Shown here: positions 1,151 to 21,798 of the stretch, one piece after another
Position numbering within the stretch: the first letter of the stretch is position 1
Layout: the number at the start of each line of letters is the position of its first letter
NCBI GenBank assembly: GCA_020072965.1
Contig: JAIQFY010000044.1
Span: 1-41,823, forward strand
DNA length: 41,823 nucleotides
Source of the DNA: Terriglobia bacterium
GTDB lineage: Bacteria; Acidobacteriota; Terriglobia; JAIQFV01
Reading direction: 5' to 3'
Notes under the pieces: generated by a model
Databases searched by the model: none
What the model was told of the DNA's origin: nothing
The model's input: only the letters and a program-made list of their open reading frames with translations
Made by a program: the position numbers and the translations under genes

Positions 1151-1237
1151 GCTCATTCCAAGTGCGGCATTTTACTTTATGGAGTCTGTAATAAGAGGCC
1201 AAAGGAAACCCTGATGGCCCACAAGAGGAGAACAATA

Positions 1238-3742
1238 ATGAACAAGAAAATGAGCTCGGCAATATATCATCGTACCCGCCGCAAGTTGTCCTGGGCGTCT
1301 GGCGCATTGACCCTCTTGTTTCTGGTCGTGCTCGTATGGACCAGCAACACAACGGCCCAGGGTCCGATTTCACCGACGCAGTTCGACATTACGGGCTTCC
1401 TCCAGGAGGCCACGTTAACGACCCCCGCTGATGCGCACTCGGGTGGCCAGCTGAAGGTCAATGGCCATGTAGTGGTCGTTCCCAGGGAAACGATCGTGAT
1501 CCTCCCAGCGAACGCGCTTACGTGGCAGGAACTCTTTGCTCAGGCCCCGGCTCCTTACACGGGCGTAGCAACGGGGTTGGCGATGGCCGATGTTCCGGCA
1601 CCCCTCACCACGTACGAAATGGAGGTGGTAGGCAATCGCATAGGTAATACCTACATTGCCGGGCTCATCTACATCTCCCAGCAAGCCCTGAACTCAGGGG
1701 CGGGGTTCATCAACTTCATCGATTACACCCTGGGCGAGATGCGAGTCGGTGGAATCATCAATGACCCAAATTGCGCGCAGGGGGGTACCTCAGTGACGAA
1801 CCCCCTCTGTTCCGGTGCAAGGGTACGAATTAACGACCCTACGGGGAAGTTCGGCAGAGTGATGACCCCGGATCAACGCTTCACGCTCGACCCCGATAAC
1901 CCGACGATCATGAGCGGATCCGGTTTCCCCGCATGCTTTCCGCGCACCGACCCGGCCGTCGCTGACGATCCGCTGTGCCCCCAGGCCCAGCGCCCGAAGG
2001 ACCTGACAGGTGCCTTCGTCGGCAAGTTCTTCACGAACGATCCGGGGGCCGCCCCCGGTGTGCCACCCGACGCGACGAAACAGGCGCCCTTCGAGGTCGG
2101 TGACTACATCACCTATGCGGGAACACTCGTCACAGACAATGCGGCAACTCCTACTGCCGGACCATGGCCGGCTAACGGGGCCGCCGGCACCTACATCTCC
2201 GCCCACACCATCACCAGCAACGTCGCCATCTTCACTGCCCCGGGAACCAATCCCGCTTACGTGATGACCGACGTGTTCATTCTTGGCACCGGCGGATTGA
2301 CGGTTCTTGGCGCCGCGGAGGCGGTAATTCGAACCCGCTTCGAGGGAATGACCACCGACCCAAGTAAGACGATTCATCTCTATGGAATCGATTATAACCC
2401 CTCCACGGGAGCCCCGAGCGACCGTGATTGGGGCACTATAGGGGTCGATCCAGGTCCGCCCGCGGGCGCAGTTCTGGGCCGTTGGCGCTTCCGTCCCCCG
2501 TGTGCTCCCTTTGGGACCGTTCCGACAAAACCTGACAAGCAATGCGTCATGAACGCGTCAGGCGTCTTCCTGCCGGCTACGCGGGAGATGCGCGCTGTGA
2601 TCGAAGGGGATTGGTTCCCAGGTCAGACCGCCACATCTGCCAACGGTCTCATCTATGGGCAGTACCACGCGCCTATCCTGGAACTTATCTTCCCGGAGAA
2701 CATCCCTGGGAGTCCGATCATACCGGCTAACTTCGAGGCGATCCCCTTCCTAGCCTGTGGCGGTTATACCTCGTCTGCAGGGACCCTTGCGGGGCAGCTC
2801 AATCCGTGGCCCGGTGCTGCGGTTCCGTCGCTTGCAGGTTGTGCGGGTGCGATCGTGCCGCCGGTCGCCAACGCCGGTGCCGCCCAGACAGTGCCTTCGG
2901 GTTCGCTTGTGACACTGAACGGCAGCGCCTCCACGGGGACGGCCCCCTTGACCTTCGCTTGGGTCCAGGCCGCTGCGGATCCGAACCAGGTGCTCCTCAC
3001 GGGTGCGAATACAGCTAACCCAACCTTCACGGCACCCTTAGTTGCAGCGCCGGTTGTGCTGAACTTCACCTTGACCGTGTCCAATAGCGCCGGGGCCTCC
3101 TCTGCCTCCATGACCGTCACAGTCAACGCGGCAGCGGCTCCCACTGCCATCGCTCCAGCACCTCAGACAGTAATTTCTGGAACGCCAGTGACGTTGACGG
3201 CCACTTGCACGGATCCTCAAGGGCTGGCCTGCACCTTCAGCTGGCTCCAGACCTCAGGCGCACCGATCGTGCTCAACCCGAATCCCTTCAGCGGCGCGAC
3301 GATCAGCTTCACCCTCACGCTGCCGGTGGGAACGACCACCAGCACCGTCCTGCAGTTCCAGGTGACGGCAACGAACTCTGCCGGTGTCAGTTCGGCTCCG
3401 CAATCGACCTCGGTGACCGTGAACCCGGCTCCGGACGCTGTCATTATCACTTCGGCAGTGTATCGGACCTCCAAGCAACGGCTGGATCTCACAGCTTCAT
3501 CGTCAGTGATCAGCCCGAACGTCATCCTGACCTTGCAGCCTTATGTTACGACCCAGGGAACTACTTTCGACCCAAGGACTCTGGGGAGCACGGCCAACAT
3601 CATGACCAACAACGGAGGTGGTCTCTACATCATGACACTGGTGGGAGCACCTGAGCCCGCCGTGCCGCCGGCAACACCTCTCATAGTCACTTCCAATCTG
3701 GGAGGGAGAGGTACCTCGGCGCTGACCCTGATCCGGCAGTAA
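1238..3742 (+). CDS. Large secreted protein with two PKD-like domains
   Basis: About 834 residues. The ATG at 1238 is preferred over the in-frame ATG at 1214 because AGGAG lies 7 nt upstream and the leader AGGAGAACAA recurs before the gene at 3908. An N-terminal signal sequence has a basic stretch, then a hydrophobic core (ALTLLFLVVLVWTS) and a likely cut near TTAQG. Residues about 50-540 form an unrecognised conserved region shared with the gene at 19246-21798; shared motifs include a VNGHVVVVP-type segment, LTWQELF, FISQQAL (here YISQQAL), DQRFT.D.DNPTI, QAPFE..DYI.Y.GTL and FLPATREMR. Two PKD-like domains follow (about 545-730), then a C-terminal domain. The product is probably exported or surface attached. 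The N-terminal region is found beside the giant multicopper oxidase in its other copy, which hints at a common surface role; its function is unknown. Confidence 0.9.
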   Translation: MNKKMSSAIYHRTRRKLSWASGALTLLFLVVLVWTSNTTAQGPISPTQFDITGFLQEATLTTPADAHSGGQLKVNGHVVVVPRETIVILPANALTWQELFAQAPAPYTGVATGLAMADVPAPLTTYEMEVVGNRIGNTYIAGLIYISQQALNSGAGFINFIDYTLGEMRVGGIINDPNCAQGGTSVTNPLCSGARVRINDPTGKFGRVMTPDQRFTLDPDNPTIMSGSGFPACFPRTDPAVADDPLCPQAQRPKDLTGAFVGKFFTNDPGAAPGVPPDATKQAPFEVGDYITYAGTLVTDNAATPTAGPWPANGAAGTYISAHTITSNVAIFTAPGTNPAYVMTDVFILGTGGLTVLGAAEAVIRTRFEGMTTDPSKTIHLYGIDYNPSTGAPSDRDWGTIGVDPGPPAGAVLGRWRFRPPCAPFGTVPTKPDKQCVMNASGVFLPATREMRAVIEGDWFPGQTATSANGLIYGQYHAPILELIFPENIPGSPIIPANFEAIPFLACGGYTSSAGTLAGQLNPWPGAAVPSLAGCAGAIVPPVANAGAAQTVPSGSLVTLNGSASTGTAPLTFAWVQAAADPNQVLLTGANTANPTFTAPLVAAPVVLNFTLTVSNSAGASSASMTVTVNAAAAPTAIAPAPQTVISGTPVTLTATCTDPQGLACTFSWLQTSGAPIVLNPNPFSGATISFTLTLPVGTTTSTVLQFQVTATNSAGVSSAPQSTSVTVNPAPDAVIITSAVYRTSKQRLDLTASSSVISPNVILTLQPYVTTQGTTFDPRTLGSTANIMTNNGGGLYIMTLVGAPEPAVPPATPLIVTSNLGGRGTSALTLIRQ

Positions 3743-3756
3743 GCGAATCAGTTCCT

Positions 3757-3793
3757 CGCGGTCGAAGAGTAGAATTTCTCCTCTTCGACCGCG
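3757..3793 (+). terminator. Hairpin terminator, copy 2 of a repeated element
   Basis: A perfect 13-bp stem (3757-3769 with 3781-3793) encloses an 11-nt loop, 14 bases after the stop of the second PKD gene. The arm sequence CGCGGTCGAAGAG carries the same core as copies 1 and 3, whereas the loop differs. The conserved arms with variable loops suggest that the stem is what is maintained. Confidence 0.7.
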
Positions 3794-3907
3794 CTGTCTC
3801 TTCACAACTTCAATGTGATTCAAGGAAAGAGTTAGGCGCGAAGATTAATTGTGGAAAACGCAGTGATTTTGAATGCGATAAACGAAGCAACAACAAAGGA
3901 GAACAAA

Positions 3908-4804
3908 ATGAAGACAACACGCAGAATAATGATACTAGCCGCCTTGCTCCTGGTGGCAGTCGCAACGCAATCGTTCGCGCAGGGCCTGCTGGGCCTTCTG
4001 GCCCCCAAATCACCCATTCTCTTGGGTACAACCGGTGCGTGCAAGAACGCTTTTCCCGGTGGTCCGTGCACTCAAACAAGTACCCTTGTGCAGATCGATC
4101 CACTTACCGGCGCCCTCATCAAGACGATCGGTCCGGTAGGCTTCACGGTCAACGGGCTGGCCTATGACGGCATATTCGGGAAATTGTACGCTTCAACGGC
4201 CATCGGAGATGTGCGTTTTCACGGCTTAATCACGATCGACACCAAAACGGGAGCTGGTACGCCTGTTAATCCTGCAGCCCCCAATTTCGGGCTGGCTGGC
4301 GATCCTTCCCCGATCCACGGCATCACTATCGATATCCTCGGGCGTATGGTCGGCTGGTATGATGAATTTCCACCACCGATCGGGATCACCGATACATTCG
4401 TTCAAATCAACAAACGCACTGGGGTCGCAACTGAATTCAAAAACACCGGGATCGACACGGGTAACAATGGGCTTGCGTTCAGCAATTTCAACATCCTGTA
4501 TAATATCGACACTACCCGTACACAGCCGGACGGTACTATCACTCAAACCGCTTACATCATCAATCCTCGTGACGGAAAACCGTTTTGCTTTAAATTCTTG
4601 TCTCCACCCACACCGGCGGCTCTCGGCGATTTCAATCCTGATAACGACCTCTACTATGGGCTTAACTTCGACCCCACACAACCCGGCGCATTCAAGACTT
4701 CCATCGTAGTGGTAGATCTCCGCGCTGGAACAGTGACCCCGCTTGGGCCAACTGTCCCTGACCTGCACGTGATCACGTTCGTCAAGACCATCAAGTTCTT
4801 CTAA
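3908..4804 (+). CDS. Secreted beta-propeller-like protein of unknown function
   Basis: 298 residues. The frame opens further upstream, but the ATG at 3908 is chosen: AAGGAG lies 6 nt before it, and it gives a good signal peptide (KTTRRIMILAALLLVAVATQSFAQ, cut after AQ). The mature protein contains repeated blade-like phrases such as LVQIDPLTGALIKTIG, LAYDGIFGKLYAST, GLITIDTKTGAGTPV, FVQINKRTGVATEF and VVVDLRAGTVTPLG. These are the ID-x-x-TG pattern of beta-propeller proteins similar in style to DUF4394 secreted proteins; roughly four to five blades are visible. A cysteine pair lies near the N-terminus of the mature part (GACKNAF, GPCTQT). The gene follows the PKD paralogs, shares their ribosome-binding leader and is followed by the third repeated hairpin, so the three genes look like one regulated group. 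The ligand or partner is unknown. Confidence 0.8.
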   Translation: MKTTRRIMILAALLLVAVATQSFAQGLLGLLAPKSPILLGTTGACKNAFPGGPCTQTSTLVQIDPLTGALIKTIGPVGFTVNGLAYDGIFGKLYASTAIGDVRFHGLITIDTKTGAGTPVNPAAPNFGLAGDPSPIHGITIDILGRMVGWYDEFPPPIGITDTFVQINKRTGVATEFKNTGIDTGNNGLAFSNFNILYNIDTTRTQPDGTITQTAYIINPRDGKPFCFKFLSPPTPAALGDFNPDNDLYYGLNFDPTQPGAFKTSIVVVDLRAGTVTPLGPTVPDLHVITFVKTIKFF

Positions 4805-4846
4805 GTAAGCGGGAAAATATCGGCAGTGAGTTAGCTTAATCCCTCG

Positions 4847-4881
4847 GCGGTCGAAGAGCAAGGTTCCAGCTCTTCGACCGC
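4847..4881 (+). terminator. Hairpin terminator, copy 3 of a repeated element
   Basis: A perfect 13-bp stem (4847-4859 with 4869-4881) encloses a 9-nt loop, 42 bases after the stop codon at 4804, and is followed by CTCTTTCC. The arm GCGGTCGAAGAGC matches copies 1 and 2. Confidence 0.7.
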
Positions 4882-4935
4882 TCTTTCCGCGGTTCAGGGC
4901 CGACCACTCTTCCCAACCAAATAATTCTCTTCAGG

Positions 4936-4953
4936 AGTGGTAGAATTACCACT
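4936..4953. promoter_or_regulatory. Operator-like inverted repeat upstream of 5081
   Basis: AGTGGTA and TACCACT form a perfect 7-bp inverted repeat around GAAT, about 130 bases before the start at 5081. It is outside any gene and too short for a convincing terminator, so a protein-binding site for the downstream gene is possible. No good -35/-10 pair was found beside it. Low confidence. Confidence 0.25.
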
Positions 4954-5080
4954 TGGGACATTAGTCAACTCCATGATTCAGGTTGTTTAGGAACGGGTGA
5001 GTGTTCTTGGTCCTCGGCATTGCGTCATTAATTATTGGTCTTCAAAGTAAGGCACTAGAAGCGTAAGAGGGGTAGTACGT

Positions 5081-6883
5081 ATGAAAAGAATTTTACAAGC
5101 ACTGTTTATCGCAACAATATTTTGTCTGTTGGTACCAGGAATCGGCCAAGCTCAAACAGACTGCACGGCGGGGGCGCAAATGATCACCCCCACCAACGGG
5201 TCGACGCTTCCAGCAGGTGCAGTGACATTCGAGTGGTGTAATGCAAATGCTGACTACTTCCTGACGATAGAAAGCGTGGTTGGCGCACATGATATTTTCT
5301 TTGCCTTTGTCGGGGGAATAGGCCCAGGCGCCGGCGTGGTTTCTGTAACTCTGGGACCCGCTTGCGCCCCAGTGTCTCCCATCCAGTGCATCCCGCCGAA
5401 CGGTGAAATCATCCACGTCACGCTAGACACGGTGAGATCTAAAACTATCCTCTCATCCTTCCAGTACACCTATACCGCCGCAAGCCCAACGAACCCGGAC
5501 ATTACGATGACATTCCACATGCCGCCGAACGGCGCGTCAGCAACCACTTCTGGGTTGGGACCCTTGGCGGTCATTTACGGTCAGATGAGTACGTCGATGA
5601 CAACGAATCCGGTAGCCATTGCGAACTTCGGTTTCACCAGCGGGGCGGGAGCCGGAGCCCTGATCACGGAGGCAAGCGTGCCGGCAGCGACCGTCTTAAC
5701 GGCGGCGCGTTTGTTCGTCGATTTCAATGCCTCCACCGGGCAGGATAGCGGAGTGGCACTGGTGAACCCGGGTGCGAGCCCGCTATCTGTCAACGTGATT
5801 TTGATGAGTCAGACGGGCGTTGCCAGCACTTGTCCGAATGTGCAAGTCGCCGCCCATGGGCACACTGCCCTGTTTGCAAGTCAGTTTGGCTGTCCGTCTT
5901 TAGCGAGTCCGTTTCTCGGGACGTTGACGTTCACCGCGGCTGGTCCCTTTGCCGCAGTCAATCTGCGCGCGGCCCAGAATGGCCACGCGGAGCAAATCTT
6001 CAGTGCCTTGCCAGTGGTTGACCCCACGGTTGCGCCTGCCGGAACCAACTTGATTTTCTCTCAGATCGTGGATGGAGGCGGAAATCCAACTCAGATCCTG
6101 TTGATGAATACATCGGGATCACCGATCAGCGGTATAATTTCTCTTTTTGATGATACGGGGAACCCGATCGCGTTAGACTTTGGAGGCGGGCTGGTCATTT
6201 CACAACCCTATTCAATCAGCGGGAATGGAGTACAGAAATTCTCAACAACCGGCCAGGGGACGTTGAAGGTCGCTTATGCCGTGGTGACGCCCACGTCAGG
6301 GCAGCTTCCCTCGGGGGCCTCGATTTTCGGATCAAGGGGTGCAACCGGGGTGGCCTCTCAAGCAGGGGTTTTGAATGCGCCACAGACCAACAATGCCCGG
6401 GTCTATATCGAACGGACCTCCGCACCCCTCAACCGGAACACTGGAATTGCGATCGTGAATCGAAATGCTTCCTCGGCCAATGTAACGCTTCATCTGGTGA
6501 GCCTGGACGGCTCGTTTGATCAGACGACGAGTAAGACCTACAGTGCCAATGCCCATGATGCAGAATTCATAGACCAGTTCTTCCCGGCGGGCGCGGTCCC
6601 TGTAGATTTCAAAGGGGTCCTGGCAATCCAAAGCAACCAGCCGCTTGCGATTGTCACGCTGCGCCTGACGAACAATCAGCGCAGTGAAGAAATCTTCTCA
6701 ACCTTGCCGGTTGCGGATCTCAACAATCCGCCGTTGGGTCCGCTCTTCCTCCCGCAGGTAGTCAACGGCGGGGGCTATAAGACACAGATCATTGTATTAG
6801 GGACATCCCTTGGCCTCGGGGCTGTCAACATCAATTTTTTCGACGACACGGGAGGCATCGTGCCCTTGGCCCAGCTTCTGTAA
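5081..6883 (+). CDS. Modular secreted beta-sandwich protein
   Basis: 600 residues, ATG preceded by GAGGGG at a workable distance. The signal peptide is LFIATIFCLLVPGIGQA with a cut after AQA. Residues 25-135 resemble a degenerate fibronectin-type module (GSTLPAGAVTFEW, then an exposed loop and a VTLDT-type edge strand). Residues about 165-600 hold alternating beta-sandwich units. One type reads DSGVALVNPGASPLSVNVIL or NTGIAIVNRNASSANVTLHL. The other reads FSQIVDGGGNPTQILLMNTSGSPI or LPQVVNGGGYKTQIIVLGTS, each followed by FDDTG. Such units are frequent in secreted acidobacterial proteins and also occur in the protein at 17635-19107. The last unit stops just after FDDTGG, about 80 residues shorter than the earlier copy. 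The protein is probably at the cell surface; the function is unknown. Confidence 0.85.
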   Translation: MKRILQALFIATIFCLLVPGIGQAQTDCTAGAQMITPTNGSTLPAGAVTFEWCNANADYFLTIESVVGAHDIFFAFVGGIGPGAGVVSVTLGPACAPVSPIQCIPPNGEIIHVTLDTVRSKTILSSFQYTYTAASPTNPDITMTFHMPPNGASATTSGLGPLAVIYGQMSTSMTTNPVAIANFGFTSGAGAGALITEASVPAATVLTAARLFVDFNASTGQDSGVALVNPGASPLSVNVILMSQTGVASTCPNVQVAAHGHTALFASQFGCPSLASPFLGTLTFTAAGPFAAVNLRAAQNGHAEQIFSALPVVDPTVAPAGTNLIFSQIVDGGGNPTQILLMNTSGSPISGIISLFDDTGNPIALDFGGGLVISQPYSISGNGVQKFSTTGQGTLKVAYAVVTPTSGQLPSGASIFGSRGATGVASQAGVLNAPQTNNARVYIERTSAPLNRNTGIAIVNRNASSANVTLHLVSLDGSFDQTTSKTYSANAHDAEFIDQFFPAGAVPVDFKGVLAIQSNQPLAIVTLRLTNNQRSEEIFSTLPVADLNNPPLGPLFLPQVVNGGGYKTQIIVLGTSLGLGAVNINFFDDTGGIVPLAQLL

Positions 6884-11688: not shown

Positions 11689-13131
11689 TTGAAAAGAATG
11701 ACCGACAAAATGGCTAGACTGTTCTTATTAGGGGGACTGGTGCTCCTGCCGCCCGGTTGGGTACGGGCCCTGAGTGCTGCAACTGACGCCCCACTCCAGG
11801 AAGATGACCTCCAATACAGTTGTCCAATGCATCCCGAGGTCAGGTCAAAGTCACCTGGCGCCTGTCCAAAGTGCGGGATGGAGTTCGTTCGGAGATCGGA
11901 TGCGGCAAGAGTGGAGAATGGCCCCGTCGATTCTAAGAAGGAGAAGCCGGCAGACACTCACCCCCATCTACAGATTCCCGATACGGCGGTTCTCGATCAA
12001 GAAGGCCGTCCAATAAGATTTTATAGCGACCTGGTAAAAGGACGAACAGTTGCCATCAACTTCCTGTTCACGACTTGCACCACGATTTGCCCTCCTATGG
12101 CGGCAATGTTCCGAAAAGTGCAGACTGAGCTCGGGGATCGTGTGGGAGGTGACATCGCGTTGATCTCAGTCACTGTGGACCCGAACACGGACGTCCCTGA
12201 GCGGCTGAAGGGTTTCCTCGCGAAGTTTAAGGCGGGACCAGGCTGGACTTTTGTCACGGGGAAGAAGCCGGAGATCGATTCTCTGTTGCGATCGCTGGGT
12301 GCTTATGTTTCGGATAAGAATGACCACAGTCCCATGATCCTGATCGGGAATGAGGCGACGGGGTACTGGACGCGGACTTATGGACTCGCCTCCCCCGCTT
12401 CGATCGTAAAACTCATCAAAGAGGCGGCGGAAGGAAGGACCGCGAGAGAGGTCGACTCTGGTCAAACGCCTCCCGAACCCTCGCGTACCCTACACGAGCG
12501 TGGAGACAAAGATGGCCCTGCTTCAATTCCGCGGCCATCTCCTCCCGCGATCAGAAATGGCAACGGACTCCAAGGGGCTCAATCCCGCACACTTGAAAAG
12601 GACACGGCGTCACGCTCTGTGGCCGCGGCCCACTACTTTACGAATCTCCCGCTGCTCACTCAGGAGAACAAACCAGTTCGGTTCTACGAGGATATGCTCA
12701 AGGGAAAAATCGTCCTGGTCAACTTCATGTTCACTACCTGCACCGGAATATGCCCGCCGATGACTGCAAACCTGGTAAGGGTTCAGACTCTGCTCGGGGA
12801 GCATGCCGGCCGGGAAATAAACATGCTCTCCCTCACCGTTGATCCGCTCACTGACACCCCCGAAATGCTCAAGAAATATGCCGACAGCTTTAAGATCAAA
12901 CCCGGATGGTATTTTCTCACCGGAAAAAAAGAAAACATCGATTGGGTGCTTTACAGGCTCGGAGGATACGTAGAAGACAAGGTAGAACACAGCGGATTGC
13001 TTCTCATTGGAAACGACACGACCGGCGAATGGATCAAGGTGTCGGCCATGGCAAGGCCGGCTGACATCGCCGAGGCCGTCATGAAGTGGTTGGAGAATAA
13101 GCCGAAGGCCGAACCAAAGCTCGCCCCATGA
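11689..13131 (+). CDS. Double-SCO copper chaperone/thiol-disulfide protein with heavy-metal-binding motif
   Basis: 480 residues from TTG 11689 (GGAG 6 nt upstream); ATGs at 11698 and 11710 are alternatives. A signal peptide covers residues 1 to about 30. A heavy-metal-binding motif follows (YSCPMHPEVRS at 43-53, then CPKCGM at 59-64), as seen in copper-handling proteins. Then come two complete SCO1/SenC thioredoxin-fold domains. The first (about 95-250) has the copper-binding cysteines CTTIC at 130-134 and His 213. The second (about 315-470) has CTGIC at 351-355 and His 434. Family members insert or reduce copper in periplasmic cupro-enzymes such as the CuA site of cytochrome oxidase. Both halves keep all three ligands. 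The stop overlaps the next start (ATGA). The likely client in this locus is the giant multicopper oxidase. Confidence 0.92.
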   Translation: MKRMTDKMARLFLLGGLVLLPPGWVRALSAATDAPLQEDDLQYSCPMHPEVRSKSPGACPKCGMEFVRRSDAARVENGPVDSKKEKPADTHPHLQIPDTAVLDQEGRPIRFYSDLVKGRTVAINFLFTTCTTICPPMAAMFRKVQTELGDRVGGDIALISVTVDPNTDVPERLKGFLAKFKAGPGWTFVTGKKPEIDSLLRSLGAYVSDKNDHSPMILIGNEATGYWTRTYGLASPASIVKLIKEAAEGRTAREVDSGQTPPEPSRTLHERGDKDGPASIPRPSPPAIRNGNGLQGAQSRTLEKDTASRSVAAAHYFTNLPLLTQENKPVRFYEDMLKGKIVLVNFMFTTCTGICPPMTANLVRVQTLLGEHAGREINMLSLTVDPLTDTPEMLKKYADSFKIKPGWYFLTGKKENIDWVLYRLGGYVEDKVEHSGLLLIGNDTTGEWIKVSAMARPADIAEAVMKWLENKPKAEPKLAP

Positions 13132-14918
13132 AGCAGTTTTCTATTCGCACCGTTCCAACCGCCCCGGGGGTTCAAGTCACAAATTCGCGAGAAGAGCCTG
13201 ATGAGAAACCTGACCCCATCAACTCGAACTTCTATTATTCTCCGGGACAACAGCGTGCAGCAAAGATGAAGCCGAGTTCCCGCCGATTGCCTTCGAGGAC
13301 AATGAAGTCTTTGGGTGACGTCAAGAATACAGCCTTCCCCCTGTCGGGCTTACTGACAATTTTGTTGCTGTCCCTCAACTGCTGGATCTTCGCCCAAGCC
13401 AGACAAAGTTTCTCCCCTCAGGATCGCCTGGGAAAGCAGATTTACCTCAAGGGAGAAGATGGGGAGCGGGGGGAAATCAATGCCGTCCTCGGCGTCGGCG
13501 ACCTGGAGTTGCCGGGTACATCCTTTCCATGCGTCAACTGCCATGGACCCCGCGGCGAAGGAACGAGCGAAGGCGGTCTGCAGCCTTCCCCCCTGACCTG
13601 GACTGAGCTCAGGTCGCCACATACCTCCCCCTTGACTGGACACAAAAGAGGTCCTTACAACGAGGCGACATTGGCCCGGGCGATCAGCCACGGTCTCGAC
13701 CCGGGGAATCTGCCGTTGCACCCCGGCATGCCCCATTACCAAATGTCTCTGCATCAGATGGCTGACCTGATTGCCTATCTCAAGAAGCTCGGTAGTGATG
13801 CCGACGTGGACTCGGGCCTGAATGATACAATCATCGACCTCGGCTCTGTGCTGCCAATGACGGGTCCACTGGCGCAAGCGGGCCAGGATGTCAAGGCGAC
13901 ATTGAACGCTTATTTCACTGAGATCAATTCACAGGGTGGAATCTATGGCCGCAGGTTTAACCTCCAGGTTGCAGATTCCCACGGCGATGCCGAGGGGACG
14001 CTGAAGGCGACCCGAAAATTGGTCGAAGAAGAAGCCGTCTTCGCCTTGATCGGCAGCTTCGAGCCATCCGGCAGCGACCCTACAAATGAATACCTCAGAC
14101 AGAAGGAAGTCCCCTTGATTGGTCCGACGACGCTTCTGCCACGGCCTTCCATTCCACCGAACCCTTATGTATTCTACCTGCTTCCCACTTTTAGAGACCA
14201 GGCACGAGTCCTTGTTGATTTTGTCCATTCAAGAACAAAGGTCGAACCGCCAAAGCTTGCCGTCATTTCCGAGAGGGGCGAGGTATATGCCGACGCGCTG
14301 GCGGGGCTGAAATTGCAGGCTAAGATGTACGCGATGAACCTGGTTTTTGAAGAGGATTACAAGCCGGGCCTGCTTTCTCCCTCGACTGTCGTCAAAAACC
14401 TGGTGGCGAAACAGCCGGAGTATGTGTTTGCCTTCGGGAGCGCGGATGACGTGGTGGCCCTGGGGCTTGAAATGAAACGAATCGGTTTTACCCCGCCGCT
14501 TTTGGGTTCGGCGACCCTGGTCGGTCGTCTAGCGTTCAGTCTACCCCCTGAGATCGCAAGCAATTGTTTCCTCTCCTATCCTGCAGCCTTCCCCAATCGA
14601 GAGGAGCTCGAAGAATTCCTGTCCGTCTTGAGAAAAGCCAAAGTCGAGTTGAGAAGTCCCGCGTTTCAAGCGTCCGCTTACGCTGCGGCGAAGATCATGG
14701 TTGAGGTAGCAAAACGTAGTAGCCGGCAGATCACCCGTGCGCAGCTGATTCAATCGATGGAGAAGCTGAGGGATTTCCAGACGGGAGTCGTACCCCCGGT
14801 AACCTTCGGCCCCAACCGGAGAGTCGGTTGTTCGGGATCGTACATTGTTGGAATCGATCTTAAGAACAAGAGGCATGTCCCATTCAGTGAGTGGATGGTT
14901 CCCAGAGATCAACCCTGA
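13128..14918 (+). CDS. Cytochrome c fused to a periplasmic binding protein (LivK type)
   Basis: 596 residues if translation starts at 13128, overlapping the SCO stop as ATGA. Internal ATGs at 13266 and 13302 would place the hydrophobic signal segment (PLSGLLTILLLSLNCWIFAQA, about 71-91) nearer the N-terminus and may be the true starts. A class I cytochrome c domain covers about 95-220: heme site CVNCH at 135-139 and axial Met in PGMPHYQM near 201. From about 235 to 590 runs a Peripla_BP_6-type domain (GSVLPMTGPLAQAGQDVKA, INSQGGIYGRRFNLQVAD, ALIGSF), the fold that binds branched-chain amino acids and other small ligands for ABC transporters. No permease or ATPase gene is linked, so it may sense or bind a ligand while passing electrons. 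It is transcribed with SCO and faces the oxidase arm. Confidence 0.88.
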   Translation: MKQFSIRTVPTAPGVQVTNSREEPDEKPDPINSNFYYSPGQQRAAKMKPSSRRLPSRTMKSLGDVKNTAFPLSGLLTILLLSLNCWIFAQARQSFSPQDRLGKQIYLKGEDGERGEINAVLGVGDLELPGTSFPCVNCHGPRGEGTSEGGLQPSPLTWTELRSPHTSPLTGHKRGPYNEATLARAISHGLDPGNLPLHPGMPHYQMSLHQMADLIAYLKKLGSDADVDSGLNDTIIDLGSVLPMTGPLAQAGQDVKATLNAYFTEINSQGGIYGRRFNLQVADSHGDAEGTLKATRKLVEEEAVFALIGSFEPSGSDPTNEYLRQKEVPLIGPTTLLPRPSIPPNPYVFYLLPTFRDQARVLVDFVHSRTKVEPPKLAVISERGEVYADALAGLKLQAKMYAMNLVFEEDYKPGLLSPSTVVKNLVAKQPEYVFAFGSADDVVALGLEMKRIGFTPPLLGSATLVGRLAFSLPPEIASNCFLSYPAAFPNREELEEFLSVLRKAKVELRSPAFQASAYAAAKIMVEVAKRSSRQITRAQLIQSMEKLRDFQTGVVPPVTFGPNRRVGCSGSYIVGIDLKNKRHVPFSEWMVPRDQP

Positions 14919-15114: not shown

Positions 15115-17265
15115 CTATGGGTCTGGTACAGCAGGGGGGAACGGCTTCTTGTCTTGTATCGCCTGCAATATCAGTTGTGGGAGGTCTTGATAGCGGGCAC
15201 CCAGGGAGGGGCACTCGAAAAACACGTAATAGACGCCTGTCTGTGGCACAACAAAGGTCACTTCATAAAGGCCCTCACTCACGGCACTAGCCCACTCGCG
15301 CTTCTGCCAGGTTCCGGGAGCCAGCAAGATCAGCACCCCCAGGTCCCGCAATCCGGTTCGAGGTTGTCGAGTGGTTGGATCAATGGCCTTGAATTGCAGC
15401 CGCACGGTCTCTCCAACCGACACTCTCTTTTCTTTCGACAAGGGTTCGATCTGAATCGGAATCTGGAGCCTCCTCTTGCTTGTCGGGTTGGACTGTACCT
15501 CGGCCGCGAAACAATGAACAAAGCGCGGAGAATCCAGCAGGAAGGCGACATCATAATGGCCAGGGCGGGAGAGTTTCACGTGGGTTGAGTAGACTCCAGA
15601 TGCCACCTCTCTCAAACTTCGGTCAATCACCATCACAGCCCTGGGTTCGCGGCCATAATTTCTGAAACTCCCCATGGGAGCCGCCATCCCTTCCTCGTAG
15701 TAGTAGATCGTCTTGTCGGCGGCATTGGCGATCAAGACTGAGCTGCCTTCCGGCGCAGGCACAATGACATCAGCGCTTGCCGGACTTTTAGCTTTTCCGG
15801 GAGGAGTTTCGCCTCCGGGAATCTCAGTCACAGGCACGGTTCCTTTCCGGCCGATCGATTCCAACTGAATCATCGTCACCTGCTCCGTCTCACGGGACTG
15901 GATGTAGGCGAATGTCTGTGTGAAGGATATTTGTTCGGGGGATCTTCCCACCTCCAGTGAATGCACGATGCGATCCGTGGATGAATCGAAAATATAAACC
16001 ATGTTTTCTTTTTCATTAACCACAAACCCCCACCGCCCCTGGTCAGCAAAACGGATGACTTTCACTCCAGGTCGGGTCTTCATGACCGCGCGGATCCTGT
16101 GACTGTGGGCATCGATCACGGAGACAGTGCCGTCCTCCCCGTCGGCGACATAGGCCGCCTGACTCAATGGAGAGAAAGCAACGGACACAGGGTTGTGTCC
16201 GACTACGATGCTCGCGCTCTTCCGAAGCTGGCGTGTATCGATGACCGTCACGGTACCCTCTTGGGCTTTGTCGGTAACGAATGCGTACCCGCCATCGGTC
16301 GTGAAAGCCATCTCATGGTGTCCCGGCCCTGCAGGGATTCGTGAAATCACCTTGTCCTCGGAGGCATCGATGACGGTGATTGCTCCCGGTGTATCTCCGC
16401 TATCCCCATCATTGCCCACCCAGAGGTATTTTTCACCGGGTTGTAAGGCAAGGCGAATGGGATTCGGACCCGCGTCCAGTTCCCGTATTGACCTCCAGGT
16501 CGCCGTGTCAATGACCGCGACTTGATTTACCAACGGCATCGTGACATAGAGCTTCTTGCGATCGCCCGTCAGTACCCAGTCCTGTCCCGGACTTTTCAGC
16601 TGGACCGTTGTCAGGAGTTTGCTGCCGCCATAACCGAAAAGCGGATCGACCACCGAGATGCTGGCATCATCATTAAGCGCCAGCACATAGTAAACGTTGA
16701 GATCGACTTCGGGCCGTGTGTTTAAACTGGGACCGAGGAAGGACTGGATTTTGGCGTGACAATCTTTCGCTTCAGTAATTTTCTCGGCAGGACGAATGTC
16801 CATCCACGCCGCCGGGTGAAGACCTCTTACCGGATTTCCGCTGGTGCTATCATTGATCTTGAACTGCACCTCCGCATCCTCGCCTTCCCGCACTTCCGCA
16901 CCGCCAGGGGCATTGCCGGCCAGGGGCCGGAGGGAAAATTCCACCGCTATTCCCTCCTGAACTGATTTTTGCGGTGTGTGGCTGGGATCGGGGTTCGCTC
17001 CAGAATTCGGATCAGCTCTTCCCCCAGTAGGATTGGATTTTTTTGTTGGTTCGGTTGGTCCCTGCTTCTGGTATTCAATGTTAGAATCAGGTACACGAGG
17101 AGCAGCGGTCTGTAAACTTGTACCTCCCCCGTTCTGTTTCGAGGCTGCCCAAGTGTTCCCAAAAACCTGGGGGAGAAGCAACGCAAGGAGAAGTGACAAT
17201 CCCGTGAGACATCGAAAGGGATTCATTTTTGCGACCGCAATCATCTGTTTAGATCTCAGGTCCAT
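15115..17265 (-). CDS. YVTN-type seven-bladed beta-propeller protein with flanking Ig-like domains
   Basis: 716 residues from ATG 17265; ATGs 7 and 13 codons later are alternatives because the ribosome-binding site is weak. The signal core is LTGLSLLLALLLPQVFG. Residues about 105-165 form an Ig-like segment (DAEVQFKINDSTSGNPVRG, then HPAAWMDIRP) resembling YtkA-like domains. Residues about 185-540 are propeller blades with the repeated pattern VAVIDTATW, ITVIDASEDKVI, VTVIDTRQL, VSVIDAHSH, each with a -YVAD or -FVTD turn. This is the YVTN/YncE/cytochrome-d1-like propeller family; no heme ligand set for d1 is obvious. A C-terminal domain (about 540-715) again has two Ig-like parts. A sigma-70-like promoter precedes it at 17357-17386. 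The protein is predicted to be periplasmic or on the surface. It may scaffold the oxidase complex; the role is inferred from position. Confidence 0.85.
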   Translation of the reverse strand: MDLRSKQMIAVAKMNPFRCLTGLSLLLALLLPQVFGNTWAASKQNGGGTSLQTAAPRVPDSNIEYQKQGPTEPTKKSNPTGGRADPNSGANPDPSHTPQKSVQEGIAVEFSLRPLAGNAPGGAEVREGEDAEVQFKINDSTSGNPVRGLHPAAWMDIRPAEKITEAKDCHAKIQSFLGPSLNTRPEVDLNVYYVLALNDDASISVVDPLFGYGGSKLLTTVQLKSPGQDWVLTGDRKKLYVTMPLVNQVAVIDTATWRSIRELDAGPNPIRLALQPGEKYLWVGNDGDSGDTPGAITVIDASEDKVISRIPAGPGHHEMAFTTDGGYAFVTDKAQEGTVTVIDTRQLRKSASIVVGHNPVSVAFSPLSQAAYVADGEDGTVSVIDAHSHRIRAVMKTRPGVKVIRFADQGRWGFVVNEKENMVYIFDSSTDRIVHSLEVGRSPEQISFTQTFAYIQSRETEQVTMIQLESIGRKGTVPVTEIPGGETPPGKAKSPASADVIVPAPEGSSVLIANAADKTIYYYEEGMAAPMGSFRNYGREPRAVMVIDRSLREVASGVYSTHVKLSRPGHYDVAFLLDSPRFVHCFAAEVQSNPTSKRRLQIPIQIEPLSKEKRVSVGETVRLQFKAIDPTTRQPRTGLRDLGVLILLAPGTWQKREWASAVSEGLYEVTFVVPQTGVYYVFFECPSLGARYQDLPQLILQAIQDKKPFPPAVPDP

Positions 17266-17634: not shown

Positions 17635-19107
17635 TCAGCGGATCACGGAGGCTGTCACCGTGGTTAAGAAATCGAGCCTCCCGTTTCCAAAGATCTCCAG
17701 CATGGTCAAAGGGATTGATGAGATGACATGGATGTGCCCGCCAATTTGAGGTGAGAATCCTGGAATCAGTTCGATCAGTTGTTGGGAAATGCGCCCTCCG
17801 GCAGCGACGGTCACCGACCCCTGGCCAGTGAGACTGCCTGTTGGGGAATAAACTTGGATCTGGACTGTGGCCGCAGTCGAGTTAGGATTTTGAAAGGCCA
17901 AGCCCGTCCAATAGCCGACGCCCCCAGCGTCCCCCGAAGCTACCTGGGCAAACACTGCCTCAGAATAGGTCTGGGCCGCGACCGGAACCGCCGTGGCGAA
18001 CCGATGTTGTGCATTGTCGCCGATCACGGCGGAACCCATGACTGGCCCTCCTGGAGATGAAATCTCCAACGAGCCCACCACCAACCCCGGCCCGGAAATT
18101 CCAAACAAGACCGTCCCCTGCCCCACCACTTGACCTTGATTCGGCACGAGGATCCGCTGAGGATTTGTTTGAACGCCGTTGACGACCAGGTTTCCCTGCT
18201 CGTCCAGCAGGCTCACCGTGACTTCCAACGGAACCAAGGAAGGATTGACCAGACTCAACTCCGTGAACCAGTCGGGCCCCACCACAAATTGCGGCATGAA
18301 GAGCCTCGTTGCACCTTGGTTCATTGGCGGAGGGGACTGACCCACAAGAAGCCGACTGTTCGAAATCTGCTGAAAAGCGCTGAGAGGCTGGGAGGATTGG
18401 ACCGTCATATAGCCGTTAACCAGTGGAACTCCCGGAAAGTCCCCCAGCTTGGGGAAGAAATTCATCACCGAACTGTCCAGCATTTCCTGTGGCTCCAAAG
18501 TAACACTCTTGTCAAACTCATAAAACGCCGTATCCACGAACGAAAGCGTCACGTTCGCCCGCACTGGATTGTCATTGATGAGGGTGAATTCAAAATTTCC
18601 CACGGGATCCACTCTCGATTCAGGGAGGGTGAATTGCGTGGCTGAGCAGGTAGGATCGGAAGAACCTGCGAAAGCAAGGATGTTCGTGGGAGTGTTCAGA
18701 AACATCGCATGCACATCCGGGCTGGGGGAGCTGACCTCAACCCATCCTCCCGCGAAGCCCTCGAACCGTGGATCGTACTCGCTTAGAAATTTCGAAACTT
18801 GGGCCAGCGCAGGGATCGTCACGGAAGTGCTCACGGTGACCGTGAAACGCGCAGAGCCCGAACTGCCGGGGTCGCGGGAGTATCCGCGCAGTTGGACTTC
18901 AGCCGCCGAGCTTCCGCTATTGGTCAGTGCAAGTCCCACTTTTGCTGTCGCGTCATTGCGGAGTACGGGTATCTCGAAGGTGTTCGCTGCGCCGAGGGTT
19001 GGAATCAAAAGGAACATCGCCAGGGCGAACAGGCGATATGCGAAACTCCTTTTCTGAGGAATGGAGCGTATAGTCTTTCCTGGTCGGTTGTTGGCCTTAA
19101 TTTTCAT
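17635..19107 (-). CDS. Modular secreted beta-sandwich protein
   Basis: 490 residues; GGTGAGG precedes the ATG on the minus strand. Signal peptide after a basic start: FALAMFLLIPTLGAA, cut before NTFEIP. The mature part consists only of repeated beta-sandwich units: KVGLALTNSGSSAAEVQLRGYS, FEFTLINDNPVRANVTLSF, FMPQFVVGPDWFTELSLVNPS and GYWTGLAFQNPNSTAATVQIQVYS, each followed by a turn such as LLDEQGNLV or SPTGSLTG. The same unit types occur in the protein at 5081-6883, so both belong to one acidobacterial-style family of secreted modular proteins. It stands between the PKD paralog and the YVTN protein in the minus-strand arm of the oxidase locus, 138 bases after the former, with hairpins in between. 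A structural or adhesive surface role is likely; there is no catalytic motif. Confidence 0.85.
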   Translation of the reverse strand: MKIKANNRPGKTIRSIPQKRSFAYRLFALAMFLLIPTLGAANTFEIPVLRNDATAKVGLALTNSGSSAAEVQLRGYSRDPGSSGSARFTVTVSTSVTIPALAQVSKFLSEYDPRFEGFAGGWVEVSSPSPDVHAMFLNTPTNILAFAGSSDPTCSATQFTLPESRVDPVGNFEFTLINDNPVRANVTLSFVDTAFYEFDKSVTLEPQEMLDSSVMNFFPKLGDFPGVPLVNGYMTVQSSQPLSAFQQISNSRLLVGQSPPPMNQGATRLFMPQFVVGPDWFTELSLVNPSLVPLEVTVSLLDEQGNLVVNGVQTNPQRILVPNQGQVVGQGTVLFGISGPGLVVGSLEISSPGGPVMGSAVIGDNAQHRFATAVPVAAQTYSEAVFAQVASGDAGGVGYWTGLAFQNPNSTAATVQIQVYSPTGSLTGQGSVTVAAGGRISQQLIELIPGFSPQIGGHIHVISSIPLTMLEIFGNGRLDFLTTVTASVIR

Positions 19108-19245: not shown

Positions 19246-21798
19246 TCACTTGATAGCAACCGTGGATGTGGCTGTACCTCCAAAACTTGATGTGACCGTT
19301 ACACTGGTGGGTGATGTTGTCGTAACCGTTGCGGTGTATGTATTCGTCGCCGAAGCATAGATCATCACCACGTCCGGGATGCCTGCCACATGGAGCGTCA
19401 GTTGTGGCTGCCCCGTGTTTGGAGTATTGATTGAGCTGGCGTTGGATGTAGCTGTCACATCCAATCGTGATTTTGCCCTCCGCCAGGTCGCGTTCGTAAT
19501 ATTGACGGTATCGAGAGGTGGCTTCACAGTCACGTTTGTAATTCCCGTGGAGCTGAAACCCGCGGCATCCGTGACCTTCAACTGGAATGTAAACGTAAAA
19601 GGCGGTTGGATGGGAGTCAGGGCCGGCGCCGAGAAGGTCGCTGTCGACGACGTTGCCGTGTTCGTCACCGTCAAGGTGAGTTGCGGAGTCGCCGGGGCAG
19701 TCTGGGTCCACTGGAACGATAAGGGTGTGCTCGGGTCGATAGCGCTGCCGCTGATCCTGACAGGTGACAGCCCGGAGTTAACCTGCTGGTCGGCACTCAT
19801 GGTGATCACCGGAGCCCCAAGAGGAACCACCGTCACACTGGTCGTTGAAATTGCCGAGGACGTGAAGCCGTTGTCAACCGCAAGCGAGAAGGTCAGCACC
19901 GTCGGCACGGTTACTGGCGGCGCCGTGAAGAACGCGCTCGGGAAACCCGGATCCTGGAGCCCTGGGGGGTTAGGAAGTGTCGGCCCGCCGCTCTGCAACC
20001 AGGTGTAGTTGAGCGGAAGCGTTGGATTGTTTGTGTCGAAGCTCCCGGTGCCGTTGAGGATCACCGACGCTCCGGAATTCACCGTCTGCGAAGGACCCGC
20101 ATTGGCGACCGGCGCGGAAATCACGGTGCCCAGGCTGCAACCTGTGGGAGGAGCAGGAGAGACCAGTCCCGGCCACGGATTGAGTTGTGAGAGGTTGCCT
20201 AACGCGGTCGCGCTCGCGTTTGACCCGGCCCCAAAGTACGGCCCGGAACCATTGACCAGGAATGGAAACTCCTGGAACGGCATTGGCACCGGCGGGCTTC
20301 CAATAATCAAACTTTCGGGAAAAATGAAAGTGAAGTTAGGCGCGTGATACTGCCCCGCGATCAAACCGTTGGCATATCTTTTTGCAGTCGTCAGCAACGT
20401 ATCGAGCGCCGAACCCGACACCTGTCCGCCCGTCAGCGTACGGCTGACAACGCGCATCTCGCGGGTGGCCGGAAGGAAGTTGCCAATCGTGGTTCTCAGG
20501 CGGGCGCGCCCCTTCAAGCCCCCTACGGGTGGGCCAAAGGGATCGGCGGTTCCGTAGTACCGATCGCTCTGATGACCGCAAGAATCCACATCAATTGCAT
20601 AAATATCAACGAGCTGAGTCGGGTCCGTGGAGAACGCTGTAACGCGGAGTTTCTCTACCGCCTCTTGAGGGAAAAGCGGATTGGGAATACCGCCGATACC
20701 CAGCAGCATCTCTTCGATGTTGAGATAGGCCGGCATGGAGCCTGGCGCTGTGAAGATGCCGAGGTTCGCGTTGATCGTGTGCGCCGAGATGTAAAGGCAA
20801 TTGTTGTTCAAGGCACTGGGCACGCAAAGGGGATCAGCATCTTTGACGAGTGTGCCTGAATAGTCGATGTAATCGTTGATTTCGAACGGGGCCTGCTGCG
20901 TTGAGTCGGGAATCTGAATATTCAGGCCCGTTCCGGGGTCCACTATTGGCGCCGGAATGGTGAAGATCGTCTGGAAGCCGCCCGTAATGGGATCCATCGG
21001 GCGGTTCTTCTGGGGACAGAGGGGATCGATGCTGACAGTGGGGTCGGTCCGCGGGATGCACATGGGATACCCGGTTTGTGCATGGATGGTCGGATTGTCC
21101 TCATCAGACGTGAAACGCTGGTCATGCGATTGAGCGCTGCCAAACCGCCCGCTGGGCGTATTGATACGTACTCGCGCCTTGATTTGCGGTGAGGTGCTGC
21201 CAAGGGGAGAAGAACTCACCCACAATTCCCCTTTGGCGTAATCGATATAATTAATGAACCCCTGCCCGACTTTCAGCGCCTGTTGCGAAATGAAGATGAA
21301 CGCTGCAAGATAGCGGTCATTCGCGCCGTCAGATACGCGGTTGCCGATGACCGTCACCTCATAAGAGGCCAGAGGGGTCGGGATATCGCTCAATGCAAGG
21401 CCAGTCTGGTCGGCGCCGAGAAGTCCTGAGCCCATCCCATATGGACCTGTGGAGCAAGGCAACCCGGTCGACGCACAACCGAGACTGGCAGGTACGGTTG
21501 AGGACGGAGCGAGCTTGAATAGCTCCTGCCAGGTCAGGGCAAACGCGGGCATCTGGAGCAGAGTGTTCTTCGGAACCGTGATCTGTGTCCCGTTCACCGT
21601 AAGAGTTCCGCCACAGGTGACATCGGTCCTGCAGGCGGAATCCAGTGTCGCCTGCTCGATGAACCCGGTCACCTGGAAGGGCGAAATCGCTTGGAGAGTG
21701 GCAGCGTAAGTGTTGCCCCTGGACAGCAATCCTGTGAACAGGAAGAGACCGAAGGCGATACAGCTGAGCATTTTCATGATCGAACCATAGCTTTTCAT
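19246..21798 (-). CDS. Large secreted protein with PKD-like domains, third paralog
   Basis: 850 residues. GAGGTG lies 6 nt before the ATG on the minus strand. Signal peptide LSCIAFGLFLFTGLLSRGNTYAA. The N-terminal region (about 35-560) matches the protein at 1238-3742 segment by segment: PFQVTGFIEQATLDS, GGTLTVNGTQITVPKN, LTWQELF, FISQQALKVGQGFINYIDY, DQRFTSDEDNPTI, QQAPFEINDYIDYSGTLV, NFLPATREMRVVSR and NGLIAGQYHAPNF. It then has two PKD-like domains (PVANAGPSQTVNSG near 565, a second near 660) and a diverged C-terminal domain. It differs from the plus-strand pair by extra cysteines (SACRTDVTCGG, GCASTGLPC). It follows the giant oxidase by 120 bases on the same strand and is probably co-transcribed with it. 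The family appears to accompany this oxidase; biochemical role unknown. Confidence 0.9.
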   Translation of the reverse strand: MKSYGSIMKMLSCIAFGLFLFTGLLSRGNTYAATLQAISPFQVTGFIEQATLDSACRTDVTCGGTLTVNGTQITVPKNTLLQMPAFALTWQELFKLAPSSTVPASLGCASTGLPCSTGPYGMGSGLLGADQTGLALSDIPTPLASYEVTVIGNRVSDGANDRYLAAFIFISQQALKVGQGFINYIDYAKGELWVSSSPLGSTSPQIKARVRINTPSGRFGSAQSHDQRFTSDEDNPTIHAQTGYPMCIPRTDPTVSIDPLCPQKNRPMDPITGGFQTIFTIPAPIVDPGTGLNIQIPDSTQQAPFEINDYIDYSGTLVKDADPLCVPSALNNNCLYISAHTINANLGIFTAPGSMPAYLNIEEMLLGIGGIPNPLFPQEAVEKLRVTAFSTDPTQLVDIYAIDVDSCGHQSDRYYGTADPFGPPVGGLKGRARLRTTIGNFLPATREMRVVSRTLTGGQVSGSALDTLLTTAKRYANGLIAGQYHAPNFTFIFPESLIIGSPPVPMPFQEFPFLVNGSGPYFGAGSNASATALGNLSQLNPWPGLVSPAPPTGCSLGTVISAPVANAGPSQTVNSGASVILNGTGSFDTNNPTLPLNYTWLQSGGPTLPNPPGLQDPGFPSAFFTAPPVTVPTVLTFSLAVDNGFTSSAISTTSVTVVPLGAPVITMSADQQVNSGLSPVRISGSAIDPSTPLSFQWTQTAPATPQLTLTVTNTATSSTATFSAPALTPIQPPFTFTFQLKVTDAAGFSSTGITNVTVKPPLDTVNITNATWRRAKSRLDVTATSNASSINTPNTGQPQLTLHVAGIPDVVMIYASATNTYTATVTTTSPTSVTVTSSFGGTATSTVAIK

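Follow-up and report, generated by a model that had tools for sequence, protein, structure and literature searches.

A cytochrome c and LivK-type binding-protein fusion in an MnxG-type multicopper oxidase locus of a Terriglobia bacterium, possibly an accessory of copper loading

Introduction

Contig JAIQFY010000044.1 of a Terriglobia bacterium (assembly GCA_020072965.1), the whole of which, 41,823 nucleotides, was analysed and is called the window here, carries an open reading frame (ORF) in which a class I cytochrome c domain is joined to a LivK-type ligand-binding domain, beside genes for SCO proteins and a giant oxidase. What could a heme domain and a nutrient-binding fold do in one protein at such a place? 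An earlier note on this DNA suggested that the binding domain senses a ligand and gates electron flow to or from the oxidase system. The question touches an old observation, as loss of c-type cytochrome maturation abolishes Mn oxidation in Pseudomonas putida MnB1 and GB-1, according to 1998 work related in PMC9634551. Here, we report that the fusion recurs with MnxG-type oxidases and SCO proteins, and that it more likely helps to build or serve the oxidase than senses a nutrient.

Results

The fusion recurs with MnxG-type oxidases and SCO proteins

MnxG is a multicopper Mn(II) oxidase. The giant oxidase of the window matched the solved MnxG (9bxa_A) with an E value of 4.9e-107 in four stretches, a long match, and carries HCHFYPHFAQGM and several HxH motifs, which we take to be copper-ligand motifs. 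By its sequence, it is a homolog of MnxG.

Gene neighbourhoods were compared among 21 fusion loci including the window, where some multicopper-oxidase queries were taken from the counted loci themselves and the oxidase nature of these rests on Pfam. An SCO match occurred somewhere in the stretch in 18 of the 21 loci, and in 15 it was on the strand of the fusion and no more than 400 bp away; a multicopper-oxidase match was likewise found in 18. Where both were present (17 loci), SCO was the nearer of the two in 14, and it lay 3.5-8.8 kb from the fusion in L117, L122 and L035 (loci, genomes and contigs bear our L, G and C numbers). Two SCO stretches share one ORF in the window and also in L005, and separate SCO ORFs occur in L003, L004, L112, L117, L118, L119, L120 and L123. 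In G337, an SCO domain (CSTIC), a cytochrome c domain (CAGCH) and a remnant of the binding domain share a single ORF, which measures 572 aa between stop codons. Other proteins with multicopper-oxidase domains stand near the more distant fusions, which come from Cupriavidus, Paraburkholderia and several families in the phylum of the window. The tie to an oxidase system, which the earlier note had drawn, is upheld, and it is stronger than the letters alone could have told: the fusion gene is part of a manganese-oxidase locus of the MnxG type that also has SCO genes.

The association was also seen across 396 genomes sampled from the window's phylum, for each of which at most two (MnxG) or three (fusion) first-look candidates were scored, so that absences are not certain. 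MnxG matches at an E value of 1e-10 or better occurred in 12 genomes, nine of them strong (below 1e-60), and close fusions (below 1e-40) in seven, with a reduced form on the MnxG contig in two more (G337 and G418). Counting the two reduced fusions, eight genomes had both a strong MnxG and a fusion, one had MnxG only, one the fusion only and 386 neither (p 6e-15, Fisher test); with intact fusions only, the corresponding counts were 6, 3, 1 and 386 (p 1e-10), both p values to be read in the light of thresholds set after the hits were seen and of related genomes that are not independent. Chance co-location of the fusion and MnxG was rejected on these co-occurrence statistics. A genome of the same genus (G001) gave only an ordinary binding-protein match, and no fusion was found in the DNA compared of four further MnxG stretches (L114, L115, L118 and L130, the last with a weak MnxG match). 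The contig of L123 ends shortly after the SCO genes.

The window locus is a rearranged version of the published mnxG locus

For P. putida GB-1, a putative mnxG operon has been listed that comprises mnxG, a YVTN beta-propeller gene, two SCO genes, an ABC substrate-binding/cytochrome c gene and SurA (PMC11409713, Table 4). Its fifth gene is annotated there as 'amino acid/amide ABC transporter substrate-binding protein, cytochrome c domain' (IMG 641547574), and counterparts are given for strains DSV-1 and MS-1 (PMC11409713); a matching operon, with one gene labelled ABC, is described for Pseudomonas sp. OF001 in PMC8218464. The window fusion fits this gene type, having both domains in one protein, a linked MnxG homolog, a beta-propeller protein and two SCO domains. 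Because the same gene set makes up the GB-1 operon, the window locus is a rearranged version of the published mnxG locus in another lineage. The likeness covers the same two domains by annotation and the same neighbours (mnxG, propeller, SCO, SCO), the comparison with the GB-1 fifth gene being one of annotation and neighbours and not of sequence alignment. However, the window has both SCO domains in one ORF together with a heavy-metal-binding domain (HMBD), its SCO-fusion pair and its oxidase-propeller group lie on opposite strands, two extra genes intervene, the oxidase ORF is 7 kb from the fusion, and no SurA match occurred among the 16 window ORFs run through Pfam.

Two further systems resemble parts of this arrangement. 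Banci and colleagues reportedly described, in 2011, a Sco-cytochrome c fusion protein of P. putida, in which SCO and cytochrome c would be joined as in the G337 ORF, whereas the window has adjacent genes and an added binding-protein half; not one of 17 listed PDB sequences is named as such a fusion. In Leptothrix, the mofA operon contains a cytochrome c gene, mofC, and thus likewise places a cytochrome within a multicopper Mn-oxidase operon, but section 7 of PMC8218464 describes its product only as a cytochrome c domain-containing protein, and the likeness to the fusion is one of description.

The fusion is a genuine two-domain protein with a conserved heme site

Pfam placed Cytochrom_C at residues 135-221 of the 596-aa ORF (E value 1.2e-6) and Peripla_BP_6 at residues 236-575 (positions 2-337 of the 343-position profile, E value 5.1e-44). 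A frame or sequence error as the origin of the fusion was ruled out, because ORFs spanning both domains recur in independent assemblies, among them L003, L004 and several genomes of the window's phylum; fusion matches covering window residues 102-592 were also found in seven plasmid records. The cytochrome c/LivK-type fusion that the earlier note reported is therefore real.

The fusion has the CxxCH motif and distal Met of class I cytochromes c, and from the alignment we infer Met201 to be the axial heme ligand. C135, C138, H139, M201 and P202 are kept in all 23 fusions of an alignment whose members were chosen by homology to the window and Paraburkholderia fusions, and CxxCH is present in every fusion match listed in the neighbourhood comparison; the predicted class I heme domain with CVNCH and Met is thus well founded. 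Among 10 intact close fusions, conservation is higher in the cytochrome domain (mean pairwise identity 0.455) than in the binding domain (0.298). A structure prediction from a three-sequence alignment (window, L003 and L004) reached a mean pLDDT of only 45, and the conclusions here do not draw on it. The first codon of the ORF lies in a 4-bp overlap with the end of the upstream SCO ORF; the true start is probably internal, at ATG 13302 (residue 59), which by-eye reading places before a hydrophobic stretch. The genome also encodes Cytochrom_C_asm proteins of the cytochrome c assembly family.

The binding half appears to have lost its pocket

For the ligand-contacting residues, which we take to be Ser79, Thr102, Tyr150, Tyr202 and Glu226 of LivJ, 20 intact fusions were aligned with 16 ordinary proteins (LivJ and LivK of Escherichia coli and 14 ordinary homologs), the set including the near relatives L003/L004, L034/L035 and L095/L126. 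The Ser79 position holds Ser or Thr in all 16 ordinary proteins and in none of the fusions, and an aromatic residue stands at the Tyr150 position of every ordinary protein but, again, of no fusion. Tyr202 (Tyr in 9/16 against 0/20) and Thr102 (Thr in 6/16 against 1/20) discriminate in part, and Glu226 does not separate the two groups, so that the argument rests on positions 79 and 150 together with three reduced homologs. At the five positions the window has P, L, V, S and A, and thus lacks the contacts for an alpha-amino acid; three of the five (102, 202 and 226) differ among ordinary homologs as well. No single substitute at positions 79 and 150 is common to all fusions.

The three MnxG-linked fusions with a reduced binding domain are L005 (Sulfidibacter corallicola), L121 and L122, which fill 154, 113 and 179, respectively, of the 372 positions from the cytochrome end to the C-terminus in window numbering; the cytochrome is kept in them, whereas roughly half of the binding domain, or more, is gone. 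Each of the three still has a stretch resembling GGIYGR close to where the domain begins, and the conserved patches of the binding domain among the fusions are GGIY.R and a C-terminal PNRR region. The S. corallicola genome holds two MnxG-type loci (L005 and L129); the fusion is intact in one of them and lacks over half of its binding domain in the other.

Judged from the alignment, the binding pocket of the fusion appears lost. With both position 79 and position 150 changed in every one of the 20 intact fusions, and with three homologs reduced, ligand sensing by the window fusion seems unlikely, and the gating role put forward in the earlier note is not sustained: loss of the ligand-contacting residues, which that note had named in advance as a finding that would speak against it, is what the LivJ positions reveal. 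Its description of the binding domain as complete holds for length and fails for the pocket. The fusion thus shares domain family and length with the LivJ/LivK (HAAT) proteins and has Peripla_BP_6, but differs from them in the cytochrome c in front, the lost contact positions and a contig without a permease match.

No LivH/LivM-type permease accompanies the fusion

A search for LivH/LivM-type permeases gave no BPD_transp_2 match on the window contig (C75, 41.8 kb), ATPase genes being outside this search. The genome has five such matches, on C19, C67 and C89. As a positive control, two permease matches (C89:130301-131968) lie next to its ordinary LivK-like protein at C89:132518; therefore, a permease beside the fusion would have shown up. 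The earlier remark that no transporter lies nearby accordingly stands with respect to the permease.

Other genes of the window and of related loci

The features of the window are collected in Table 1. For neither the 490-aa DUF5719 protein nor the 850-aa PKD-domain protein did the compared neighbourhoods yield a homolog above 50 bits; residues 561-824 of the latter gave a below-cut-off match to the C-terminal part of the myxosortase-dependent M36 peptidase family. The beta-propeller protein gave below-cut-off matches to models of lactonase-type nitrous-oxide reductase and hydrazine synthase beta. Three ORFs at 1214-6883 (842, 317 and 600 aa) had no Pfam match at 0.001.

Table 1. Features of the fusion locus in the window (positions on the 41,823-nt contig)
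Feature	Position	Strand	Basis or remark
HMBD heavy-metal-binding domain and two SCO1/SenC domains, one ORF	11689..13131	+	Pfam; CTTIC and CTGIC motifs
Cytochrome c-Peripla_BP_6 fusion	13128..14918	+	596-aa ORF; likely start ATG 13302
Class I cytochrome c domain, residues about 101-222	13428..13793	+	Pfam PF00034 at residues 135-221
CVNCH	13530-13544	+	Residues 135-139 of the fusion
Met201 in MP motif	13728-13730	+	Kept in all 23 aligned fusions
LivK-like (Peripla_BP_6) domain, residues about 234-596	13827..14915	+	Amino-acid contact positions replaced: P313, L336, V386, S438, A462
YVTN-type beta-propeller protein	15115..17265	-	Counterpart of second mnxG-operon gene (PMC11409713)
490-aa protein with DUF5719 match, between oxidase and propeller	17635..19107	-	Pfam
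850-aa PKD-domain protein, between oxidase and propeller	19246..21798	-	Pfam
Giant multicopper oxidase, MnxG homolog, 1620 aa	21919..26781	-	Match to PDB 9bxa

In L126 and L127 (G085 and G241; neighbours typed by Pfam and by homology, respectively), a distant fusion has an adjacent SCO gene, a 1.7-kaa protein with Cu-oxidase_2 and CarboxypepD_reg, and a Kelch protein. In L034 and L035 (Cupriavidus and Paraburkholderia), a distant fusion has in its vicinity a giant protein of 2.7 kaa, which has no MnxG match, and a multicopper oxidase of 0.5 kaa; the Paraburkholderia giant (2723 aa) had neither a Pfam oxidase match nor a PDB match at 0.01, and its Cupriavidus counterpart showed only an N-terminal resemblance to a multicopper oxidase. 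Type II secretion genes follow the Paraburkholderia fusion locus. In G247 (L123) the gene behind the two SCO genes is SurA-like, the same order as in P. putida, and in G310 (L112) the fusion is followed by a DsbA-like gene. Neither type occurred among the other neighbours run through Pfam, which were a selection, so that we attach little weight to these genes, although they fit an assembly role.

Discussion

Based on these findings, we tentatively propose, with a confidence that stays a little short of even, that the fusion is an accessory cytochrome of the MnxG-type locus and, as a periplasmic heme protein, serves SCO as electron partner when the oxidase is loaded with copper. The fusion would be exported and its heme attached; the cytochrome domain could then exchange electrons with the neighbouring SCO, involving its disulfide and the Cu(II)/Cu(I) states of its copper, as SCO would load copper into the large oxidase, and the binding-protein half may be a docking or structural module instead of a sensor. 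The recurrent company of MnxG, propeller and SCO, the heme site, the loss of contact positions and the pairing with SCO are features of the sequences, and the electron exchange is what they suggest. A copper-loading role would fit the loss of Mn oxidation in the cytochrome c maturation mutants, a phenotype that PMC9634551 instead explains by electron transfer from Mn(II).

Several observations weigh against this proposal. Two close relatives of the fusion, L111 (G129:C37) and L116 (G067:C31), have neither an SCO nor an oxidase match in their stretches, L128 has an oxidase-like match and no SCO match, and L113 (G297) has SCO and no oxidase match beside the fusion. G129 carries a fusion without any MnxG match, and G247 has MnxG without a fusion. 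Tyr79, Asp102 and Glu150 recur in one distant fusion group (L080, L090, L095, L126 and L128), where this pattern may reflect a different pocket or only relatedness. A literature search, with subscription papers mostly beyond reach, found no functional study of the fusion gene, and a side path for electrons would be an equally fitting place for the cytochrome.

The main rival is an electron outlet, in which the cytochrome would take the electrons of Mn(II) oxidation from the oxidase and pass them to the respiratory chain for energy; we regard it as unlikely, though it deserves to be taken seriously. Multicopper oxidases reduce O2 themselves, which speaks against such an outlet, as does the nearness of SCO, rather than the oxidase gene, to the fusion. 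On the other side, c-type cytochromes have been proposed to channel Mn(II) electrons to terminal oxidases, and some are induced by Mn(II) at 18 °C; yet the induced bands reported there are PetC, CcoO1/CcoO2, CcmE and a cytochrome c5, and not the fusion (PMC9634551). The presence of mofC in the mof operon also favours an outlet (PMC8218464). Rather less probable is a structural subunit, in which the fusion would be part of an outer-membrane oxidase complex and the heme would provide stability or local electron storage. An outer-membrane Mn-oxidizing complex with cytochrome c is one of the published hypotheses (PMC9634551), and the retained patches of the binding domain agree with it; against it, the unvarying heme ligands suggest a redox role.

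That the fusion senses a ligand and, through its binding domain, gates the flow of electrons is highly improbable. The full-length domain of the window, from a fold family that binds amino acids or related ligands, and the recurrent Tyr/Asp/Glu pattern of the distant group could speak for it, but the two discriminating positions are lost in every intact fusion with no common substitute, and half or more of the domain is deleted in three MnxG-linked loci. Gating by some other ligand through other residues is conceivable, with nothing in support of it for the window's type. Lastly, an ABC uptake component of the usual kind, with heme as an incidental addition, which the Peripla_BP_6 family match would allow, has a vanishingly small chance in view of the oxidase and SCO neighbours; this reading was rejected for the contig without a permease and the lost contact positions.

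Beyond copper loading in the window, a wider idea is that giant secreted multicopper oxidases, of at least three types and in several phyla, are generally loaded with copper by a heme-driven cassette made up of SCO, cytochrome c and a binding protein in decay, and that this cytochrome is the reason why maturation mutants lose Mn oxidation; we consider it speculative and, in this full extent, rather unlikely.

In conclusion, the gene set was already published for P. putida, and the window would add a member in another lineage, its role being as yet unproven. For the loss of Mn(II) oxidation in c-type cytochrome mutants of P. putida, found in 1998, three explanations compete (PMC9634551). The fusion offers a specific candidate for this cytochrome requirement, being encoded in the oxidase operon near the copper chaperones and kept even where the binding half decays, and the copper-loading and electron-outlet models predict different copper contents of MnxG in the absence of the fusion gene.

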